From positions 1 to 25,126 of the forward strand of contig JAJYRT010000006.1 in the NCBI GenBank assembly GCA_021793945.1: DNA of 25,126 nucleotides, written 5' to 3'. The translations under genes and the position numbers were made by a program. The stretch comes from Thermoplasmata archaeon. Its GTDB lineage: Archaea; Thermoplasmatota; Thermoplasmata; Thermoplasmatales; Thermoplasmataceae. The notes below the pieces were generated by a model. That model searched no databases, was not told where the DNA came from, and worked only from the letters and a program-made list of their open reading frames with translations. This document shows positions 18-12,388 of the stretch, one piece after another; positions within the stretch are counted from its first letter, which is position 1; each line of letters begins with the position of its first letter.

Positions 18-24
18 TTTATAC
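18..24 (+). promoter_or_regulatory. TATA box of the VirB-like operon
   Basis: TTTATAC is centred about 25 bases before the ATG at 47. Transcription should therefore begin at or next to the start codon, giving a leaderless mRNA. This makes the 95-residue pilin-like gene the first gene of the operon, although only 46 bases upstream are visible. Confidence 0.55.
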
Positions 25-46
25 AACTCATTAATATAGTGAAATA

Positions 47-334
47 ATGGTATCATTATCACAAATAGGTATAGTTGCGATCTTAAGTTATGTTTCATCC
101 ACAACCCAGCTGTCAGGGGCCCTGAGTAGGTTACTTGAGGTTGTGGTGTCAATTTCTGCTGTGGTAGTTGCCTTGCTATGGATACCCATCGCACTGAGTT
201 TCTTCAGTACTGATGAAAACAAGAGATTTGAGGCGAGAGGTCGGCTCAAGAATGCATTGATTGGTACATTGATATACGTACTGGCAATAAGCGGGGTAAT
301 CTACGCAGTTTTCAATTATGTGGCAATAGGGTAA
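47..334 (+). CDS. Small two-helix membrane protein, VirB2/CedA1-like pilin candidate
   Basis: This encodes 95 residues with two strongly hydrophobic segments (about 30-53 and 69-91). A short charged loop rich in K, R, D and E (54-68) joins them. That size and helical hairpin are typical of VirB2/TrbC-type conjugative pilins and of the archaeal Ced/Ted pilin subunits. The identification rests on topology and gene order, because pilins of this kind diverge beyond easy recognition by sequence. It lies 7 bases before a VirB6-like gene and is followed by PrgI/VirB3-like and VirB4-like genes, all on the same strand. I infer a membrane-extracted pilus subunit of a DNA-transport machine. The alternative is an unrelated small accessory membrane protein of the same complex. 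The ATG at 47 is supported by the TATA box 25 bases upstream. Confidence 0.6.
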   Translation: MVSLSQIGIVAILSYVSSTTQLSGALSRLLEVVVSISAVVVALLWIPIALSFFSTDENKRFEARGRLKNALIGTLIYVLAISGVIYAVFNYVAIG

Positions 335-341
335 TAGCATC

Positions 342-1403
342 ATGCTGTCTATCTTATCTGATATTCCAAAGCTGATTTCCATAATCGTTTACCTTGCGGA
401 CGAAGCATACGTTGGGCTTATCGGAGGGTTTTGGTATTTCCTTGTAAAGTACGGGTTACAACCGTCTTATGCATTCCCCCTGCTTGGACAAAACTCCTCT
501 TTTATGGGGTTTTACTATTACCTTCTTGACAACCTATATTTTGAGGTTGCAGCCTTTGCGATGGTCGCTGTCTCCATATTTATCATGTTCTCTTCTTCAA
601 TTGGCGGGAACATGGGGCTGGGAGAGTTTGGCCTTCGCTTTTCTGCTTCAGTTGTTATATTCATTGGCAGTGTGGGAATAAGCCAGTTCATTGTTCAGGT
701 CTCTTATTATGCATACAGCATTCTTTGGGGATACAACGGCATAAACTGGTTTAGCTTGCTTTCAGTTACAAACATCTCCTCAAACATTTCCATTCCTCTA
801 GCACAGGTTGGATCTTCTAATGCGCTGATTGAGTTTTTCCTTCTTAGCTGGCTTTTCGTTGCCACCTTTGCCATGCTTGGCATGCTCATAGTGAGGCAGG
901 CGATTATTGTTTTCCTTACTTTGATGCTGCCGGTATTCAGCATCTTCATTATAACGCGTGAATCTTCCAAAATTGCAATAAAATTATGGATACTCTTCGT
1001 GGAATCCGCAGTTCTTCCTTTATTTGTGGTTATTTTACTGGTTCTTGTTCACATTTTTTATGGCGATTTCATTCTGCAAATAGGATTCCTGACCCTTGCC
1101 TCCCTTATTCCAACCCTGATAATGTCGAACTCCATGATTTACAGGTTTGCTTCATTTCAATCTGCGTATGGTGAAATTTCTGCTGCATCAGTAATATCTG
1201 GAGCCGCATCCCAGGCTGGATATGCCGGATCCATGATAGCTGGGAATACAAACCTCTCTAATCTTGGAAACATGCTTTCATATCCCGTATGGAACAAGGA
1301 GAAAGGAAACTCTGGCCCACTTAGAACGGGAACGCAGTCGCACAATGGCATCGACTGGAAATCAGTTGAGAATGAGAAATTAACTTACAGGAGGGTAAGG
1401 TGA
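342..1403 (+). CDS. Polytopic membrane protein, VirB6/CedA-like channel subunit
   Basis: This 353-residue protein has about six predicted membrane helices (roughly 63-85, 98-125, 161-185, 186-205, 213-240 and 243-265). They are followed by a tail rich in Ala, Ser and Gly (about 278-305) and a polar, basic C-terminus. A multi-helix core with a small-residue tail after the last helix is the usual plan of VirB6/TrbL proteins. CedA, the channel component of the Sulfolobales DNA importer, belongs to the same broad group. The family call comes from topology and from its place between a pilin-like gene and PrgI/VirB3-like and VirB4-like genes. I infer that it forms the inner-membrane part of a DNA-transfer pore. 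The ATG at 342 follows the upstream stop by only 7 bases. The next gene starts 4 bases after its stop, so the operon is compact and probably translationally coupled. Confidence 0.6.
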   Translation: MLSILSDIPKLISIIVYLADEAYVGLIGGFWYFLVKYGLQPSYAFPLLGQNSSFMGFYYYLLDNLYFEVAAFAMVAVSIFIMFSSSIGGNMGLGEFGLRFSASVVIFIGSVGISQFIVQVSYYAYSILWGYNGINWFSLLSVTNISSNISIPLAQVGSSNALIEFFLLSWLFVATFAMLGMLIVRQAIIVFLTLMLPVFSIFIITRESSKIAIKLWILFVESAVLPLFVVILLVLVHIFYGDFILQIGFLTLASLIPTLIMSNSMIYRFASFQSAYGEISAASVISGAASQAGYAGSMIAGNTNLSNLGNMLSYPVWNKEKGNSGPLRTGTQSHNGIDWKSVENEKLTYRRVR

Positions 1404-1407
1404 TCAG

Positions 1408-2157
1408 TTGGGAGAAAGACAAGGTGTAAGGATTCCCGCTAACGTCAGAAATTACACCCCAAGGATCGGAGGAATGGACGCAAGGAAGATTTCAGCGATA
1501 GCACTTCTCTTTATCATTTCGGCAATTATTTTCCATTTCAGTATGTTGATCTCCATTCTTGTTGCATCCGGTGGATCCATTTTTATTCTTTTTCCAACCG
1601 ATAACGGATTCCTGCCATCAACCATAATGCATAGGTTTTTGTCACTGTTTCATGGGAAAGCGGGCATGCTGAGGTACGAGATAGCTTTGGACTGCGGCAG
1701 CGGAATCTGCATCTTCAGGGAGAAAAACAGGATATTCTCCGTTATCTGTGCAGGTGGCTTGCCTTATCAAATGATGAAATCAAGTGAGATAATTGCCGAA
1801 GCTTCAGCGATTTCCAAATCAATCGATCTATTGACAGCAGAACTAACAGTCATGGCTCTGCCTGTTAAAGCAGAAGTGTCCAGGTATGTAACGGGATCGC
1901 CCGATGATGATTCCATGGATTATGATGGACTGGTCTCATTTCTTGTAAGTGATTCGATCTTTTATAAACCATACTTTTTCCTCAGTTTCAGGCTCAAGCG
2001 GGGTATGTCTCCGCAGCTCGACACCATGAGGAAAGAAACAGAGGAATTCAAGGAAAACCTGCAGAGGGCAGGTCTGGTTGCGGACGTGATCAGTGAAGTT
2101 GAAGATGGCAAGGAGATTTTGAAACAATTGTCGCACGATAGTCTGAACGGGATTTAG
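1408..2157 (+). CDS. PrgI/VirB3-like membrane protein with long soluble C-terminal region
   Basis: This 249-residue protein starts with a segment typical of the PrgI family, the VirB3 equivalent of Gram-positive conjugation systems: IPANVRNYTPRI at 9-20, then an R at 26 leading into a hydrophobic hairpin (about 28-62). PrgI proteins share the pattern of an IP, a Tyr-x-Pro-x-Ile and a basic residue just before two membrane helices. Residues 85-249 are soluble and have no recognised domain. They could correspond to part of the N-terminal domain of VirB4, since VirB3-VirB4 fusions are known in bacteria. The start is a TTG at 1408, directly preceded by AGGTGATC (1398-1405), a near-perfect complement to the archaeal 16S 3' end. 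The stop codon TAG shares its last base with the GTG start of the ATPase gene, which indicates translational coupling. Confidence 0.6.
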   Translation: MGERQGVRIPANVRNYTPRIGGMDARKISAIALLFIISAIIFHFSMLISILVASGGSIFILFPTDNGFLPSTIMHRFLSLFHGKAGMLRYEIALDCGSGICIFREKNRIFSVICAGGLPYQMMKSSEIIAEASAISKSIDLLTAELTVMALPVKAEVSRYVTGSPDDDSMDYDGLVSFLVSDSIFYKPYFFLSFRLKRGMSPQLDTMRKETEEFKENLQRAGLVADVISEVEDGKEILKQLSHDSLNGI

Positions 2158-3776
2158 TGAAGAGGATGGGGGATAAACAGAGGTTTTTAGTCGAGAAACG
2201 TTTTTTGATATCCGGACCTCAGGTAAAACTTTCGCAATATCGAGTTTTCCTGTCACTTGTCGACGGGGACTATGACTCTGCGGGTATGTATTGTTCACTT
2301 CTGGAATCAACAAATATGCGCATTAGGCAGAGAATATCGACTTCATCTATGCCCGAAAAGACTTCAGAGAGAACCATAAAGAGGCTGCACGCTTCACGGA
2401 AGTCTGAAATGAAATACGAGGAAAAGAAGGACAGGACCAGGGCACTTCGCCTTAAGAGGCATGTGGAAACTCTGGAATCGCTTCTCAGAAGCATTTCTGA
2501 AAATGGACGCGGGGTGTATGGAACAGATGTTCAGCTTGTCCTTGAAAGCGACCATCCGATAGAATTATCCAGGGGCACAAGAAGAGTCATGGGGGCACTG
2601 GAATATCTCGGGCTAATCATGAAAATCAACCAGAGAATCACTCGGAAGGAAATTCTGTCCTTACTAGGTCCATTCAATGATGCGAACAAGCGCTACATGA
2701 TGGATTCCCTGTCAGTAGCCAGCATACTTCCGATTCATTTTGAACCAGTCCCTGAGAGCGGAGGGTTGGTCATTGGTGTGGACGATTTGACAGAAAAGCC
2801 GGTATTCCTTGACATATTCGGTGGAAATTCATTCAACATGCTGTCTTTCGGTGAAACCGGTTCTGGCAAATCTTTCTTTACAAAACTCATGGTAAGAAGG
2901 GCGATTCTGACTTCGGCCGTAAATAATGTATACATAATCGATCCACTGGGTGAGTATGATGCTGCTATTTTTCCAGGAGGTGGCGCAGTTGTAAATGTCG
3001 GGAGTGGGGAATACATAGATCCATTGAGGGTTTCCAGTAATAATCCCGAAACGATCGATGCTTTTATCTCAATGCTCATTCATTTTGACAAGGGAATTGC
3101 AGATGATGTCAGGGTTCTAAGGCATTACCTGTCCGAATACCTTCACACTGATGGGCTGAAGACCATGCGTGGCTTTCTTCATCTACTGGCAAATGACAAG
3201 GTTATTCCAAGCTCAGTCAAGTTGATATCAGAACTCTTGTCGTCTGTTTTCATGCATGAAATTGTTATTCATGAGAGGCAGATGGTCATATTCAGGCCGG
3301 GTCAGCTCGTAAGCTCGAGCAATGAACCCGCGATGATTTCCATACTGCTATCAATTCTTTCCATGATAACTTCGACTCACAGCAAGAAGATTGTCCTGGT
3401 GGACGAGGCACATAATCTGATAGACAGTGCAGAGTGTTCGAAGCTCCTTGACACGCTCAGCCGCCATTCGCGCCATTACAGCACGTCAATTATCAGCATG
3501 ACTCAGAATCCGGAGGATTTTTTCATGAATCCCAGATCCCATTCTCTTCTGCTAAACAGTACAAGGATTTTTGGCTTTCGTACCAGATCGTCCAATTCGG
3601 AAGGTTTTTCAATTCCCGGATTTGACGGGTTTCTCGGTGTTAATTTCGCTCCCTTACTTGGAGGAAGATCAGATCCTTACTCAGAGTGTTTCCTGTCGTA
3701 TGAAAATCATCTGCGGAAAGTCAGGATATTATGCACAGAAAGAGAAAAGTCAATAATCGATGCCAGGAATGCCTAG
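2157..3776 (+). CDS. VirB4/CedB-family ATPase
   Basis: This is a 539-residue P-loop ATPase of the HerA/VirB4 group. GETGSGKS (232-239) is the Walker A motif. LVDEAHN around 414-420 is Walker B, with the catalytic D416/E417. MTQNPEDFF from 448 matches the conserved Gln-containing motif after Walker B in VirB4. IIDPLGEYD at about 261-269 matches the Walker A-proximal strand typical of the family. The first 200 or so residues form the separate N-terminal domain found in VirB4 proteins. VirB4 powers pilus assembly and substrate transfer, and CedB is the equivalent in the crenarchaeal DNA importer. The gene begins at GTG 2157, overlapping the previous stop by one base. An ATG at 2166 is the alternative start. 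HerA is less likely because HerA is usually paired with nurA, and here the partners are membrane genes. Confidence 0.8.
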   Translation: MKRMGDKQRFLVEKRFLISGPQVKLSQYRVFLSLVDGDYDSAGMYCSLLESTNMRIRQRISTSSMPEKTSERTIKRLHASRKSEMKYEEKKDRTRALRLKRHVETLESLLRSISENGRGVYGTDVQLVLESDHPIELSRGTRRVMGALEYLGLIMKINQRITRKEILSLLGPFNDANKRYMMDSLSVASILPIHFEPVPESGGLVIGVDDLTEKPVFLDIFGGNSFNMLSFGETGSGKSFFTKLMVRRAILTSAVNNVYIIDPLGEYDAAIFPGGGAVVNVGSGEYIDPLRVSSNNPETIDAFISMLIHFDKGIADDVRVLRHYLSEYLHTDGLKTMRGFLHLLANDKVIPSSVKLISELLSSVFMHEIVIHERQMVIFRPGQLVSSSNEPAMISILLSILSMITSTHSKKIVLVDEAHNLIDSAECSKLLDTLSRHSRHYSTSIISMTQNPEDFFMNPRSHSLLLNSTRIFGFRTRSSNSEGFSIPGFDGFLGVNFAPLLGGRSDPYSECFLSYENHLRKVRILCTEREKSIIDARNA

Positions 3777-4045
3777 TTCGGCGTGCTTCCGTGATATTTT
3801 TCCTGGACATACATAAGCGTTAGTATTCCAAATACAAAGACTGGAGCAACAAACGAGTAAAGTCCAATATCTGTCCAGGTATTATATATTATTGACCACC
3901 CGATATAGAAGCCTGCAGCTATGATTATCAGTGCCAGGCCTATGAATCTGAGTATGTTCGGAACTGTAACATATCCTGGAACGCTCCTCAGGGTTTTCGA
4001 GATTTTATTGTTATCAGGCAAAACAGTTACCAGACGCTGAAACAC
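3773..4045 (-). CDS. Small membrane protein of unknown function
   Basis: The 90-residue reading frame has a basic N-terminus and two clear hydrophobic segments (about 33-52 and 62-80). I do not recognise a family. It converges on the VirB4-like gene, and the two 3' ends overlap by four bases. The listed start is a GTG at 4045. An AT-rich box at about 4052-4061 lies too close to that codon for a standard promoter. It would fit better with initiation further inside, for instance at the TTG codon 9, so the start is unsettled. The next gene, mptD, is divergent and has its own promoter, so this looks like a single-gene unit. The hydrophobic pattern argues for a real gene. Confidence 0.5.
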   Translation of the reverse strand: MFQRLVTVLPDNNKISKTLRSVPGYVTVPNILRFIGLALIIIAAGFYIGWSIIYNTWTDIGLYSFVAPVFVFGILTLMYVQEKYHGSTPN

Positions 4046-10671: not shown

Positions 10672-11358
10672 TCACGATCGAACTCCCAGTTCTACCCTGA
10701 CACGGACTCTTGAATTGTCGCTTAGCTTGAGCTTATCCCTGAGATAATCACTGGATATGAGTTCAAGAACATCGCTATATACTGTCCTTTCAGGCATGAT
10801 TGCAGCGCATGGTATTCCCATTATGTCTGCATTGAATGCTTTGACCGCCCCGAATGTCCTGTCCTCTGTCTGAAAGCCATCTATATGTATGCCAGAGCTA
10901 TTTCTCAACCTGCGCAGTTCATTTTGAAACTCCTGGCTGACTCTTATGTTCAGGGTGCCAAGGAATGGGATAAAGCCAAGTTTCTCCTGGAACTGGATGA
11001 TATAGGATTTTCTCGAAATGTAATACCTACCCTCGCCAAGCCCGCTGCTCACTTCTCCTTCAATATCTATTGTATCTGACATATTGAGTATCCTTGTTAG
11101 CGAATCGAGTTCCGTAAAAAGCAAATCCAGTCCTTTTTCCGTAACTGATACGCTTTGCTTGCGGTTCTCCAGAGTCCTGTCTATGTATTTCTCTGAATTG
11201 AGCCTTATCATTAACCTGGATGCTGATTGCTGGCTTATTCCAATTTTTTCAGCCAGGTCTCCGGAAGAGATATTGCGCCTGACGTCATTCCCAATGAGTT
11301 CCTTTATGTATTTCAGCCCGAAGTAAAGCTGGTGGTCACGCTGTTTAGTTTCTCTCAT
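10672..11358 (-). CDS. rbkR: CTP-dependent riboflavin kinase with N-terminal winged helix (RbkR type)
   Basis: The C-terminal half (about 98-228) is an archaeal riboflavin kinase of the RibK family, which makes FMN from riboflavin with CTP as donor. It has GEVSSGLGEGRYYISRKSY, GFIPFLGTLNIRV, GIHIDGF, FGAVKAF and IMPERTVYSDVLELIS segments in the family order. The first 85-90 residues form a winged helix-turn-helix with a clear recognition region (SSGDLAEKIGISQQSASRLM). This two-domain form is known in archaea as RbkR, a kinase that also represses riboflavin genes. The same dual role is inferred here. It is the third gene of a minus-strand unit after aIF2-beta and a PIN nuclease, 51 bases beyond the PIN gene. 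The ATG at 11358 has GTGAGG upstream as a ribosome binding site. Confidence 0.9.
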   Translation of the reverse strand: MRETKQRDHQLYFGLKYIKELIGNDVRRNISSGDLAEKIGISQQSASRLMIRLNSEKYIDRTLENRKQSVSVTEKGLDLLFTELDSLTRILNMSDTIDIEGEVSSGLGEGRYYISRKSYIIQFQEKLGFIPFLGTLNIRVSQEFQNELRRLRNSSGIHIDGFQTEDRTFGAVKAFNADIMGIPCAAIMPERTVYSDVLELISSDYLRDKLKLSDNSRVRVRVELGVRS

Positions 11359-11409
11359 AGATTTTTCCTCACTTTTGGGTTGCTTTGAGCGAGATATACG
11401 ATGCCAAGA

Positions 11410-11769
11410 TCATACGGCCCCAATTATGCTTTTTCTTTTCAGGCTGTATACCTTCAGAAGCTTCTCCTTGGCTGTCACGATCATTTCCCTGTCATTTGTC
11501 AGAAGGGCGCATTTCATGCTCTGAGCAAGATCAATTATTGCGGTATCGCAAGCTCCGGTAACTGCAGCCTTCTCAAACCTGTCGGCTATGGCAACTGCGG
11601 CCCTAGCCTCGTTTATGCGAGTGGAAAGGCCATGAAGTTCATTAATCACACAATCAGGTACAATAATCCTGCTAAAGCCAATCGAAGAAAGCTGCTTCCC
11701 TATGTCGGTTTTGTATCTGACAGAATATATCAGGGCGTTGGAGTCAACAACTATTGTGTCCGTGGTCAT
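11410..11769 (-). CDS. PIN-domain ribonuclease, Fcf1/Utp24-like
   Basis: The 119-residue protein is a single PIN domain with the expected acidic residues: D9 in VVDSNALI, E44 in INELHGL, D75 in CDTAIID and D93 in LLTNDREM. These residues bind divalent metal for RNA cleavage. The layout matches stand-alone archaeal PIN proteins related to eukaryotic Fcf1/Utp24, which act in rRNA processing. It is not typical of toxins. No antitoxin gene lies next to it, and it starts one base after the stop of the aIF2-beta gene, which points to a role in ribosome or translation biology. A VapC-like toxin remains possible but is less likely in this context. Confidence 0.8.
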   Translation of the reverse strand: MTTDTIVVDSNALIYSVRYKTDIGKQLSSIGFSRIIVPDCVINELHGLSTRINEARAAVAIADRFEKAAVTGACDTAIIDLAQSMKCALLTNDREMIVTAKEKLLKVYSLKRKSIIGAV

Positions 11770-11770
11770 C

Positions 11771-12388
11771 TCAGGATTTTGACACTATCTCCGCAATGGC
11801 TGTGCCGTTTCTTATTTTCTTTATTACAACGCGAAGGTTCTCCCCCTTCTTCCCACCTGCAACAATTATAGAGTATCCCTTGTAACTCGTTCTGCCTTCG
11901 CCCGACTTTCCCACTTCGTTAATTGTTATATTGTACTGCTTCCCCTCTTCAAGGTCAGCCTCATTGGACTTCGAGTCTCTCGTAAGTTTAATCGGATGTT
12001 GCGCGCCGCATGCTTTGCAGGTTAGGAGATCTATTCTTCCGATCCTCTGGATCACAGTGTCCGGTGACCCGCACTCGTAACACTTGACGTAGGAATCCAT
12101 GTACTGGCTGAATTTCTTTGATATCTGCGAGGCAGATAATTTACGGTTTATTATGAGTCTTCTTCCGTTTATTGTTACCCCGATTCCAAATTCTTTCATC
12201 AGGTATTTAGCTATAACCTGAGGCTCCCTGTTTATAAGATCCGTGATATCGAGAAAATTTCTTATTATTGTCGACTTCCCCTCAAAAATGACGTCCGGTT
12301 CCGGGATTTTAAGCCTACTATCACTGGTATTTGATTTTGCAAACATGCCCGAAGCTTTTTTGAGTAAATCTTCATAATTATCTGACAT
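11771..12388 (-). CDS. eif2b: Translation initiation factor aIF2 subunit beta with C-terminal TRAM domain
   Basis: This is the beta subunit of the aIF2 heterotrimer that brings initiator tRNA to the small ribosomal subunit. Residues up to about 100 form the N-terminal helix and alpha-beta domain (VIFEGKSTIIRNF, EPQVIAKYLMKEFG, INGRRLIINR). A zinc ribbon follows, with C103, C106, C124 and C127. After the zinc ribbon the protein continues into a TRAM-like RNA-binding domain (about 146-205; EEGKQYNITINEVGKSGEGR, then a SIIVAGGKKGENLRVVIKKI strand pair). I give the start as the ATG at 12388 (205 residues) because a TATA box sits 27 bases upstream. The in-frame ATG at 12400 lies only about 15 bases from the box. 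TRAM-extended forms are known in some euryarchaea. Confidence 0.92.
   Translation of the reverse strand: MSDNYEDLLKKASGMFAKSNTSDSRLKIPEPDVIFEGKSTIIRNFLDITDLINREPQVIAKYLMKEFGIGVTINGRRLIINRKLSASQISKKFSQYMDSYVKCYECGSPDTVIQRIGRIDLLTCKACGAQHPIKLTRDSKSNEADLEEGKQYNITINEVGKSGEGRTSYKGYSIIVAGGKKGENLRVVIKKIRNGTAIAEIVSKS

Follow-up and report, generated by a model that had tools for sequence, protein, structure and literature searches.

Positions 47 to 3,776 of a 25,126-nucleotide stretch from a Thermoplasmata archaeon (assembly GCA_021793945.1, contig JAJYRT010000006.1, positions 1 to 25,126; hereafter, the window) carry four plus-strand genes, orf1 to orf4, which very likely encode a machine of the type IV secretion system (T4SS) kind. 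We consider it on balance probable that the four genes together constitute a minimal, domesticated and chromosome-fixed T4SS of Thermoplasmata with DNA as its cargo, and the most likely explanation of the locus is a T4SS that was domesticated and is inherited vertically for DNA exchange. The first gene, orf1 (47–334), encodes a 95-residue VirB2-type pilin with two hydrophobic helices and a charged loop between them; orf2 (342–1403) encodes a polytopic membrane protein of 353 residues, the candidate VirB6-type channel; orf3 (1408–2157, TTG start) encodes 249 residues with a predicted membrane hairpin in the VirB3 position and a VirB4 N-terminal domain; and orf4 (2157–3776, GTG start) encodes a VirB4-type motor ATPase of 539 residues. 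The gaps between the genes are 7, 4 and −1 bases, i.e., orf3 and orf4 overlap by one base, consistent with a single transcript. A preliminary description made from the letters of the window had claimed four close-packed genes here, and their position, close packing and motifs are as it described, including the TQ motif of orf4 (MTQNPEDF) and IPANVRNYTPRI.

A contig scan of genomes, which used one P-loop pattern and so missed members with another motif, yielded 46 loci (numbered L; genomes are numbered G). Among these, an orf1 homologue followed by an orf2 and then an orf4 homologue is found in 24 Thermoplasmata loci other than the window, of which L009/L010, L016/L019 and L017/L018 are near copies, so that fewer are independent; the other five Thermoplasmata loci (L004, L012, L014, L026, L029) are interrupted by a contig end. 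A survey of orf1 in 400 Thermoplasmata genomes, free of the limit set by the P-loop pattern, gave a match in 151, 69 of them at E ≤ 1.6e-29 and 82 weaker. In 15 further usable regions, picked by hand and including 11 from the weaker orf1 group, orf1 adjoins orf2 without exception, and orf4 is present in all 13 that lack a contig-end interruption; the orf3 profile (E ≤ 0.01) detects an orf3 portion in L078–L080, L087, L088, L090 and L091. The ratios of nonsynonymous to synonymous substitution rates (dN/dS) of the window genes versus L001 and L002 were 0.06–0.08 for orf1, 0.08–0.09 for orf2, 0.22–0.24 for orf3 and 0.16–0.19 for orf4, indicating purifying selection on all four genes. Conserved gene order and low dN/dS thus confirm, at the level of sequence, that these are four real genes in one operon, beyond chance.

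The motor protein orf4 matches PF12846 with 40.4 bits, above the cut-off of 27.5, and the two PDB chains listed for it are VirB4 (4ag5, E 7.8e-7) and, with a far weaker score, a nucleoside triphosphate hydrolase (8j4u, E 0.055). Its Walker A motif GETGSGKS (2850–2873, plus strand) and Walker B motif LVDEAH (3396–3413, plus strand) are read directly from the sequence, and G232, G235–S239, D416, E417 and H419 are invariant in an 18-row alignment. A tree of 53 rows was built by a quick method with Shimodaira–Hasegawa-like approximate likelihood ratio (SH-aLRT) support and rooted on HerA, represented by four genes that adjoin NurA and were called HerA from that position. In this tree, the HerA clade (support 100) and the TraG/VirD4-like clade (99) both lie apart from the VirB4-type proteins, and a branch with support 97 unites 45 VirB4-type rows, i.e., the window, bacterial VirB4 and other archaeal VirB4-type proteins. 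The separation of orf4 from both clades bears out the VirB4-like ATPase of the preliminary description. The order of the inner groups is not to be trusted, since several rows have long branches, by which HerA meets TraG, and the set with support 97 does not include the Micrarchaeota row. The best NCBIfam match of orf4 is NF045975 (E 6.3e-29), with 100.3 of the 590 bits required. Going by such scores, orf4 is VirB4-type but belongs to no named NCBIfam VirB4 subfamily.

Many relatives encode orf3 and orf4 as a single fused protein, which means that VirB4 is split in two here. The orf3 protein aligns with the N-terminal part of these fused relatives with a probability of 99.5, columns 2–214 of the fused proteins corresponding to orf3 and 232–672 to orf4. 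An AlphaFold2 (AF2) model of orf3 places the helices of the predicted membrane hairpin at residues 25–42 and 46–61 (hairpin 25–61, positions 1480–1590, plus strand), the VirB3/PrgI position, and a simple hydropathy scan gives a single segment, 30–48; the VirB4 N-terminal domain covers residues 85–249 (1660–2154, plus strand). Both Foldseek and VIA returned R388 TrwK/VirB4 as the best matches of the model. The model helices and the fused relatives fit a two-helix membrane protein adjoining or fused with VirB4, and sequence or fold supports the description of orf3 as a protein in which a membrane hairpin takes the place of VirB3 and the VirB4 N-terminal domain follows. VirB4 is therefore present here as two polypeptides, one of them membrane-anchored, divided at the border of the membrane-docking domain and the motor. 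In a second group of loci, an extra open reading frame (ORF) of about 119–136 residues with hydrophobic stretches stands directly before orf4 (L079, 2426–2836, minus strand; also L081, L084, L086 and L092), and the two examples examined gave no clear Pfam family. A Bathyarchaeota locus (L031, 8605–11104) has a weak PrgI match (E 0.008, below cut-off) adjoining a VirB4-type ATPase.

The assignment of orf1 as a VirB2-type protein, also made in the preliminary description, is borne out by PF18895 (T4SS_pilin), which matches all 23 orf1 homologues at E ≤ 0.01 (best 1.2e-7) and orf1 itself at E 4.2e-5 with 24.0 bits, slightly below the cut-off of 26.6. The NCBIfam family of Mbov_0395 pilin-like proteins (NF045849) matches orf1 at E 4.7e-5, with 23 of the 40 bits required. 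In the weaker orf1 group, the pilin has, besides the two hydrophobic segments seen in orf1, an additional N-terminal one that resembles a signal peptide. The orf1 profile found no pilin chain in the PDB at E ≤ 10 and aligned with a single Spiroplasma pilin at a probability of 2.7. No match was found for a CedA1/CedA-like kinship between orf1 and orf2, though one of 27 orf2 members reaches PF18895 at E 0.092. PF18895 also matches the Haloferax volcanii control genome and, in the phylum of the Bathyarchaeota genome G423 (L093), 7 of 200 genomes, one of them above the cut-off. A Micrarchaeota locus (L045, 7834–11071) has a four-gene run of like shape, encoding proteins of 114, 347 and 239 residues and a VirB4-type ATPase, and its 114-residue protein has a weak T4SS_pilin match (E 0.034).

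The orf2 protein has seven hydrophobic segments and a tail of small residues. Its structure model has a predicted local distance difference test (pLDDT) score of 71 and a predicted template modelling (pTM) score of 0.61, and the best three matches of the model in a search of 350,542 chains are R388 stalk chains (TrwJ/VirB5 with TrwI/VirB6). From their residue numbering, 2–273, we infer that the chains matched are TrwI/VirB6. The modelled fold makes orf2 a probable candidate for a VirB6-type membrane channel. Profile searches gave no match of orf2 to orf3 or to the polytopic proteins of Laceyella and Spiroplasma (L030, L037), and nothing meaningful in the PDB for orf1, orf2 or orf3.

The genomic setting indicates with high confidence that the operon is fixed in the chromosome rather than mobile. 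Upstream of it, relatives have genes for an Lrp/AsnC-type protein, a winged-helix-like protein (MarR_2, below cut-off), rpiA and a thioesterase, and downstream, genes for dihydroneopterin aldolase, an NTPase, Trm1, UbiA and a PcrB-family protein. Among 31 sources compared, the thioesterase occurs in 21, rpiA in 20, and the aldolase, the NTPase and Trm1 in 19 each. The remaining window ORFs that were scanned either serve metabolism or information processing or lack a Pfam match, and their Pfam matches include no integrase, transposase or relaxase; the preliminary description of a housekeeping neighbourhood without an obvious mobile element thus holds. The pairwise distances of orf2 and orf4 track those of the neighbour genes (Spearman 0.29–0.88, values reached by no more than 10 of 500 shuffles), and those of orf1 do so more weakly (down to 0.18, reached by 32 of 500). 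Since all the loci compared share the block, these distances show that it evolved jointly, not that the whole block was never transferred.

At its left end, the locus had been described as cut off by the window, which is not the case. A TATA-like box, TTTATA (18–23, plus strand), lies 24–29 bases 5′ of the orf1 start and is probably part of a leaderless promoter. The pattern TTTAWR begins between −36 and −24 of orf1 in 17 of 24 loci (counting the window, and with close copies among the loci), whereas shuffled sequences gave 1.57 on average and never more than 6. The sequence directly 5′ of orf1 is conserved between the window and L001 and L002, two relatives that share 88% identity with it in orf4. 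In both of these, the same-strand gene upstream of orf1 is the thioesterase gene, and orf1 is therefore the first gene of an operon that is complete on the left.

If the four proteins work as a T4SS, orf3 would dock the ATPase ring of orf4 beneath the orf2 channel, ATP hydrolysis would pull orf1 pilins out of the membrane to give a short pilus or conduit, and (single-stranded) DNA would travel through the assembly between neighbouring cells, leading to homologous recombination. As a dedicated relaxase was not found, host nucleases would have to supply the DNA end, which is also the proposal for the Ced and Ted systems. DNA as the cargo is moderately probable, given the roles of T4SS, Ced and Ted and the heavy recombination of Ferroplasma populations reported in PMC2704941. 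Import rather than export is a tentative suggestion and the somewhat less probable direction.

Several results weigh against this reading of the operon. VirB6-type Pfam families match none of 27 orf2 members at E ≤ 0.1, and the E values of the R388 stalk matches are just 0.11–0.16, which is not significant; VIA-align gives a designed repeat an equally good score on the orf2 model (9.6 vs. 9.1). The VirB6 assignment of the preliminary description is thus suggested by the ranking of R388 VirB6-type chains but finds no backing from a sequence profile. For orf3, no Foldseek match reaches E 0.001, SAM-lyase chains take ranks 3, 6 and 10, and in VIA-align an ESX-5 chain (8.4) is less than 1 away from four of five VirB4 entries. 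PrgI (PF12666) has no match on orf3, nor at its place in the L001, L002, L003, L006, L008 and L021 genomes, whereas it matches a clear PrgI–VirB4 fusion (L035) at 3e-22; on a mixed alignment, the PrgI Pfam reaches 2 of 24 proteins (best E 0.071). When the orf3 profile was compared by hhalign with one true PrgI–VirB4 fusion, the N-terminal 30 columns alone were aligned, at a probability of 1.2. Of the PrgI/VirB3 claim for orf3, the hairpin in the VirB3 position therefore stands and PF12666 membership does not, while a VirB4 N-terminal domain has been found besides. At E ≤ 0.01, the profile recognises no orf3 in L077, L081–L086 and L092. With respect to the DNA substrate, NurA, from which the single strands are proposed to come, was found in 46 of the 69 genomes that have the best orf1 matches (the set examined for relaxase, TraG and NurA) and not in the other 23, many of which are drafts. 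The tandem pilins of two loci and the VirD4/TraG-like ATPases of many genomes, which bear on the alternatives below, count on the same side.

An unlikely but substantial alternative is that the T4SS pilus was domesticated for adhesion or biofilm formation, or for protein export, and that DNA transfer was lost. The closely related loci L079 and L080 have, upstream of orf2, five and four tandem orf1-domain proteins, with a signal-like segment and mostly with N-terminal ectodomains, in which the orf1-type two-helix domain forms the C-terminal part, and such ectodomain-bearing tandem pilins also fit adhesion; the very long frames in the G+C-rich contigs L077, L082 and L083 are perhaps merely over-long open frames. 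However, the pilins of the window's own group are bare, without an ectodomain. Adhesion or export would also fit the lack of a PF03432 relaxase and of any coupling protein found in the operon, but Ced and Ted are relaxase-free too, and yet Ced moves DNA, as described in PMC9905601. PF03432 is found in none of the 69 genomes (other relaxase families were not searched) and, among 14 control genomes, matches Lactococcus lactis only, which is in line, for this family, with the relaxase-free kind of system to which the preliminary description likened the locus. A variant of the DNA-exchange explanation, which we rate slightly less likely still, is a DNA exporter with its VirD4/TraG-like ATPase encoded elsewhere, serving chromosomal conjugation from donors. 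TraG-D_C (PF12696) matches in 34 of the 69 genomes; in G007, G293 and G364 the sole match is, by position, orf4, and in the other 31 a VirD4/TraG-like ATPase lies away from the operon, so coupling-protein-dependent export has a possible basis. PMC5155288 lists a TraG/VirD4 family ATPase for Cuniculiplasma, besides the gene cluster discussed below. On the other hand, a separate TraG match is absent in 38 orf1-positive genomes, including G001 (35 have no match at all), and three of the four TraG-like frames examined (L119, L121, L122) start near Walker A and have no N-terminal membrane anchor. Among the PF12696 matches listed, none lies beside the operon save orf4 itself. In L121 (643–2625) and L122 (173–2143), the TraG/VirD4-like ATPase adjoins a gene that by eye resembles citrate synthase.

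That the operon is what remains of an integrated conjugative element (ICE), or is an active piece of one, is very improbable. It is true that the best NCBIfam matches of orf1 and orf4 (NF045849 and NF045975) are the Mbov_0395 and Mbov_0397 conjugation protein families of mycoplasma ICEs, all far below the equivalog cut-offs, and that the order of PF18895 pilin, polytopic protein and VirB4 is that of the Spiroplasma plasmid pSHM_1. However, the operon occupies the same chromosomal slot among metabolic genes in many genomes and is present as a single copy in each of the 9 genomes that matched out of 10, its genes are under purifying selection, no viral contig matches orf4, and no window gene with a Pfam match is a mobile-element gene. 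The mobile-element reading was rejected on the conserved synteny and the missing PF03432 relaxase. The Mollicute modules are themselves mobile, have VirB4 in one piece and, in pSHM_1, have VirD4 directly after VirB4, whereas the archaeal operon has a fixed slot, a split VirB4, and no VirD4 or relaxase found in it. The pSHM_1 pilin scores 27.5 bits with PF18895, over the cut-off, with a weak TrbC/VirB2 match, and its VirB4 has an N-terminal hydrophobic stretch (seen by eye) and no PF12666 match. Thermoplasma and Mollicutes are both wall-less cells. A last alternative, in which orf4 is HerA and resects DNA ends together with NurA while the membrane genes adjoin it without being related to it, has negligible probability. 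DUF87, the HerA central domain, does match orf4 (E 2e-8), but VirB4 is the best PDB match, and in four NurA loci the presumed HerA, named by position, is remote from the operon and forms its separate clade, so that the grouping with HerA beside nurA, raised earlier as a possibility, does not hold. The tree and the fused orf3–orf4 proteins contradict the reading of orf4 as HerA.

In make-up, the operon is Ced/Ted-like rather than a demonstrated member of either system. PMC9905601 and PMC11868833 describe Ced and Ted as chromosomal, relaxase-free sets of VirB2, VirB6 and VirB4-type proteins, and both are precedents for a domesticated T4SS that moves DNA (PMC9905601). Ced likewise has its VirB4 N-terminal domain split between two proteins, CedB and CedD (PMC11868833). 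However, both of those partners carry an ATPase domain of their own, whereas in the Thermoplasmata operon only orf4 does, and orf4 scores 32.8 of the 700 bits required for NCBIfam CedB, the score for CedD being 20.9 of 600, so membership in the Ced family is not supported. VirB3 is stated to be absent in archaea (PMC11868833), and the orf3 hairpin sits at the VirB3 position. Compared with the R388 inner-membrane complex (TrwM/VirB3, TrwK/VirB4, TrwI/VirB6), the operon has no recognised counterparts of VirB5 and VirB7–VirB11, and its VirB4 is split. From the cited part of a 2016 paper on Cuniculiplasma (PMC5155288), CSP5_1185–1189 and CPM_1190–93 are listed as T4SS components (VirB4, multipass, membrane and Thermoplasmatales-only proteins). 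Matched by this description, the cluster is most likely the same operon, and in that portion of the paper it is merely listed, without VirB2, VirB3 or VirB6 assignment or a link to Ced or Ted. VirB4 has likewise been noted in E-plasma (PMC10354927). The main text of PMC9905601 contains no word starting with Thermoplasma and PMC11868833 none starting with Thermoplasmat, and in the open-licence literature we found no VirB2, VirB3 or VirB6 assignment in Thermoplasmata and no link between the operon and DNA exchange.

A more specific version of the DNA-exchange explanation is that the machine is separate from Ced/Ted and old within Thermoplasmata, with its VirB4 broken into VirB3/VirB4-N and motor subunits, and that it exchanges chromosomal DNA between wall-less acidophiles; this is a serious possibility that stops just short of probable. 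If true, it would be a separate case of a DNA-moving domesticated T4SS in another archaeal phylum, and orf3 would be the first VirB3 counterpart recognised in archaea, going by the statement in PMC11868833. It would also supply the missing cause of the heavy recombination in Ferroplasma-type populations and help explain gene exchange among acid-loving archaea.

Convergent with orf4 lies a gene for a small protein with two transmembrane segments (3773–4045, minus strand), a conserved neighbour that is probably no component of the machine. It is present in 28 of the 31 sources compared, mostly facing orf4 tail to tail in relatives as it does in the window, has no Pfam family, and also stands beside orf4 in four Thermoplasma-like regions with otherwise broken synteny (L090, L135–L137). 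A role as a fifth component, comparable to CedA2, was rejected, and the protein is treated as a neighbour only, since it occurs in 299 of the 400 genomes, compared with 151 for orf1, and lies remote from the operon in several orf1-positive genomes. On the Thermoplasma-like contig of L090, the gene directly downstream of the operon (10921–11901), for which no counterpart was found in L135–L137, encodes a protein homologous to the actin-like Ta0583 (2fsj, E 2.7e-207).

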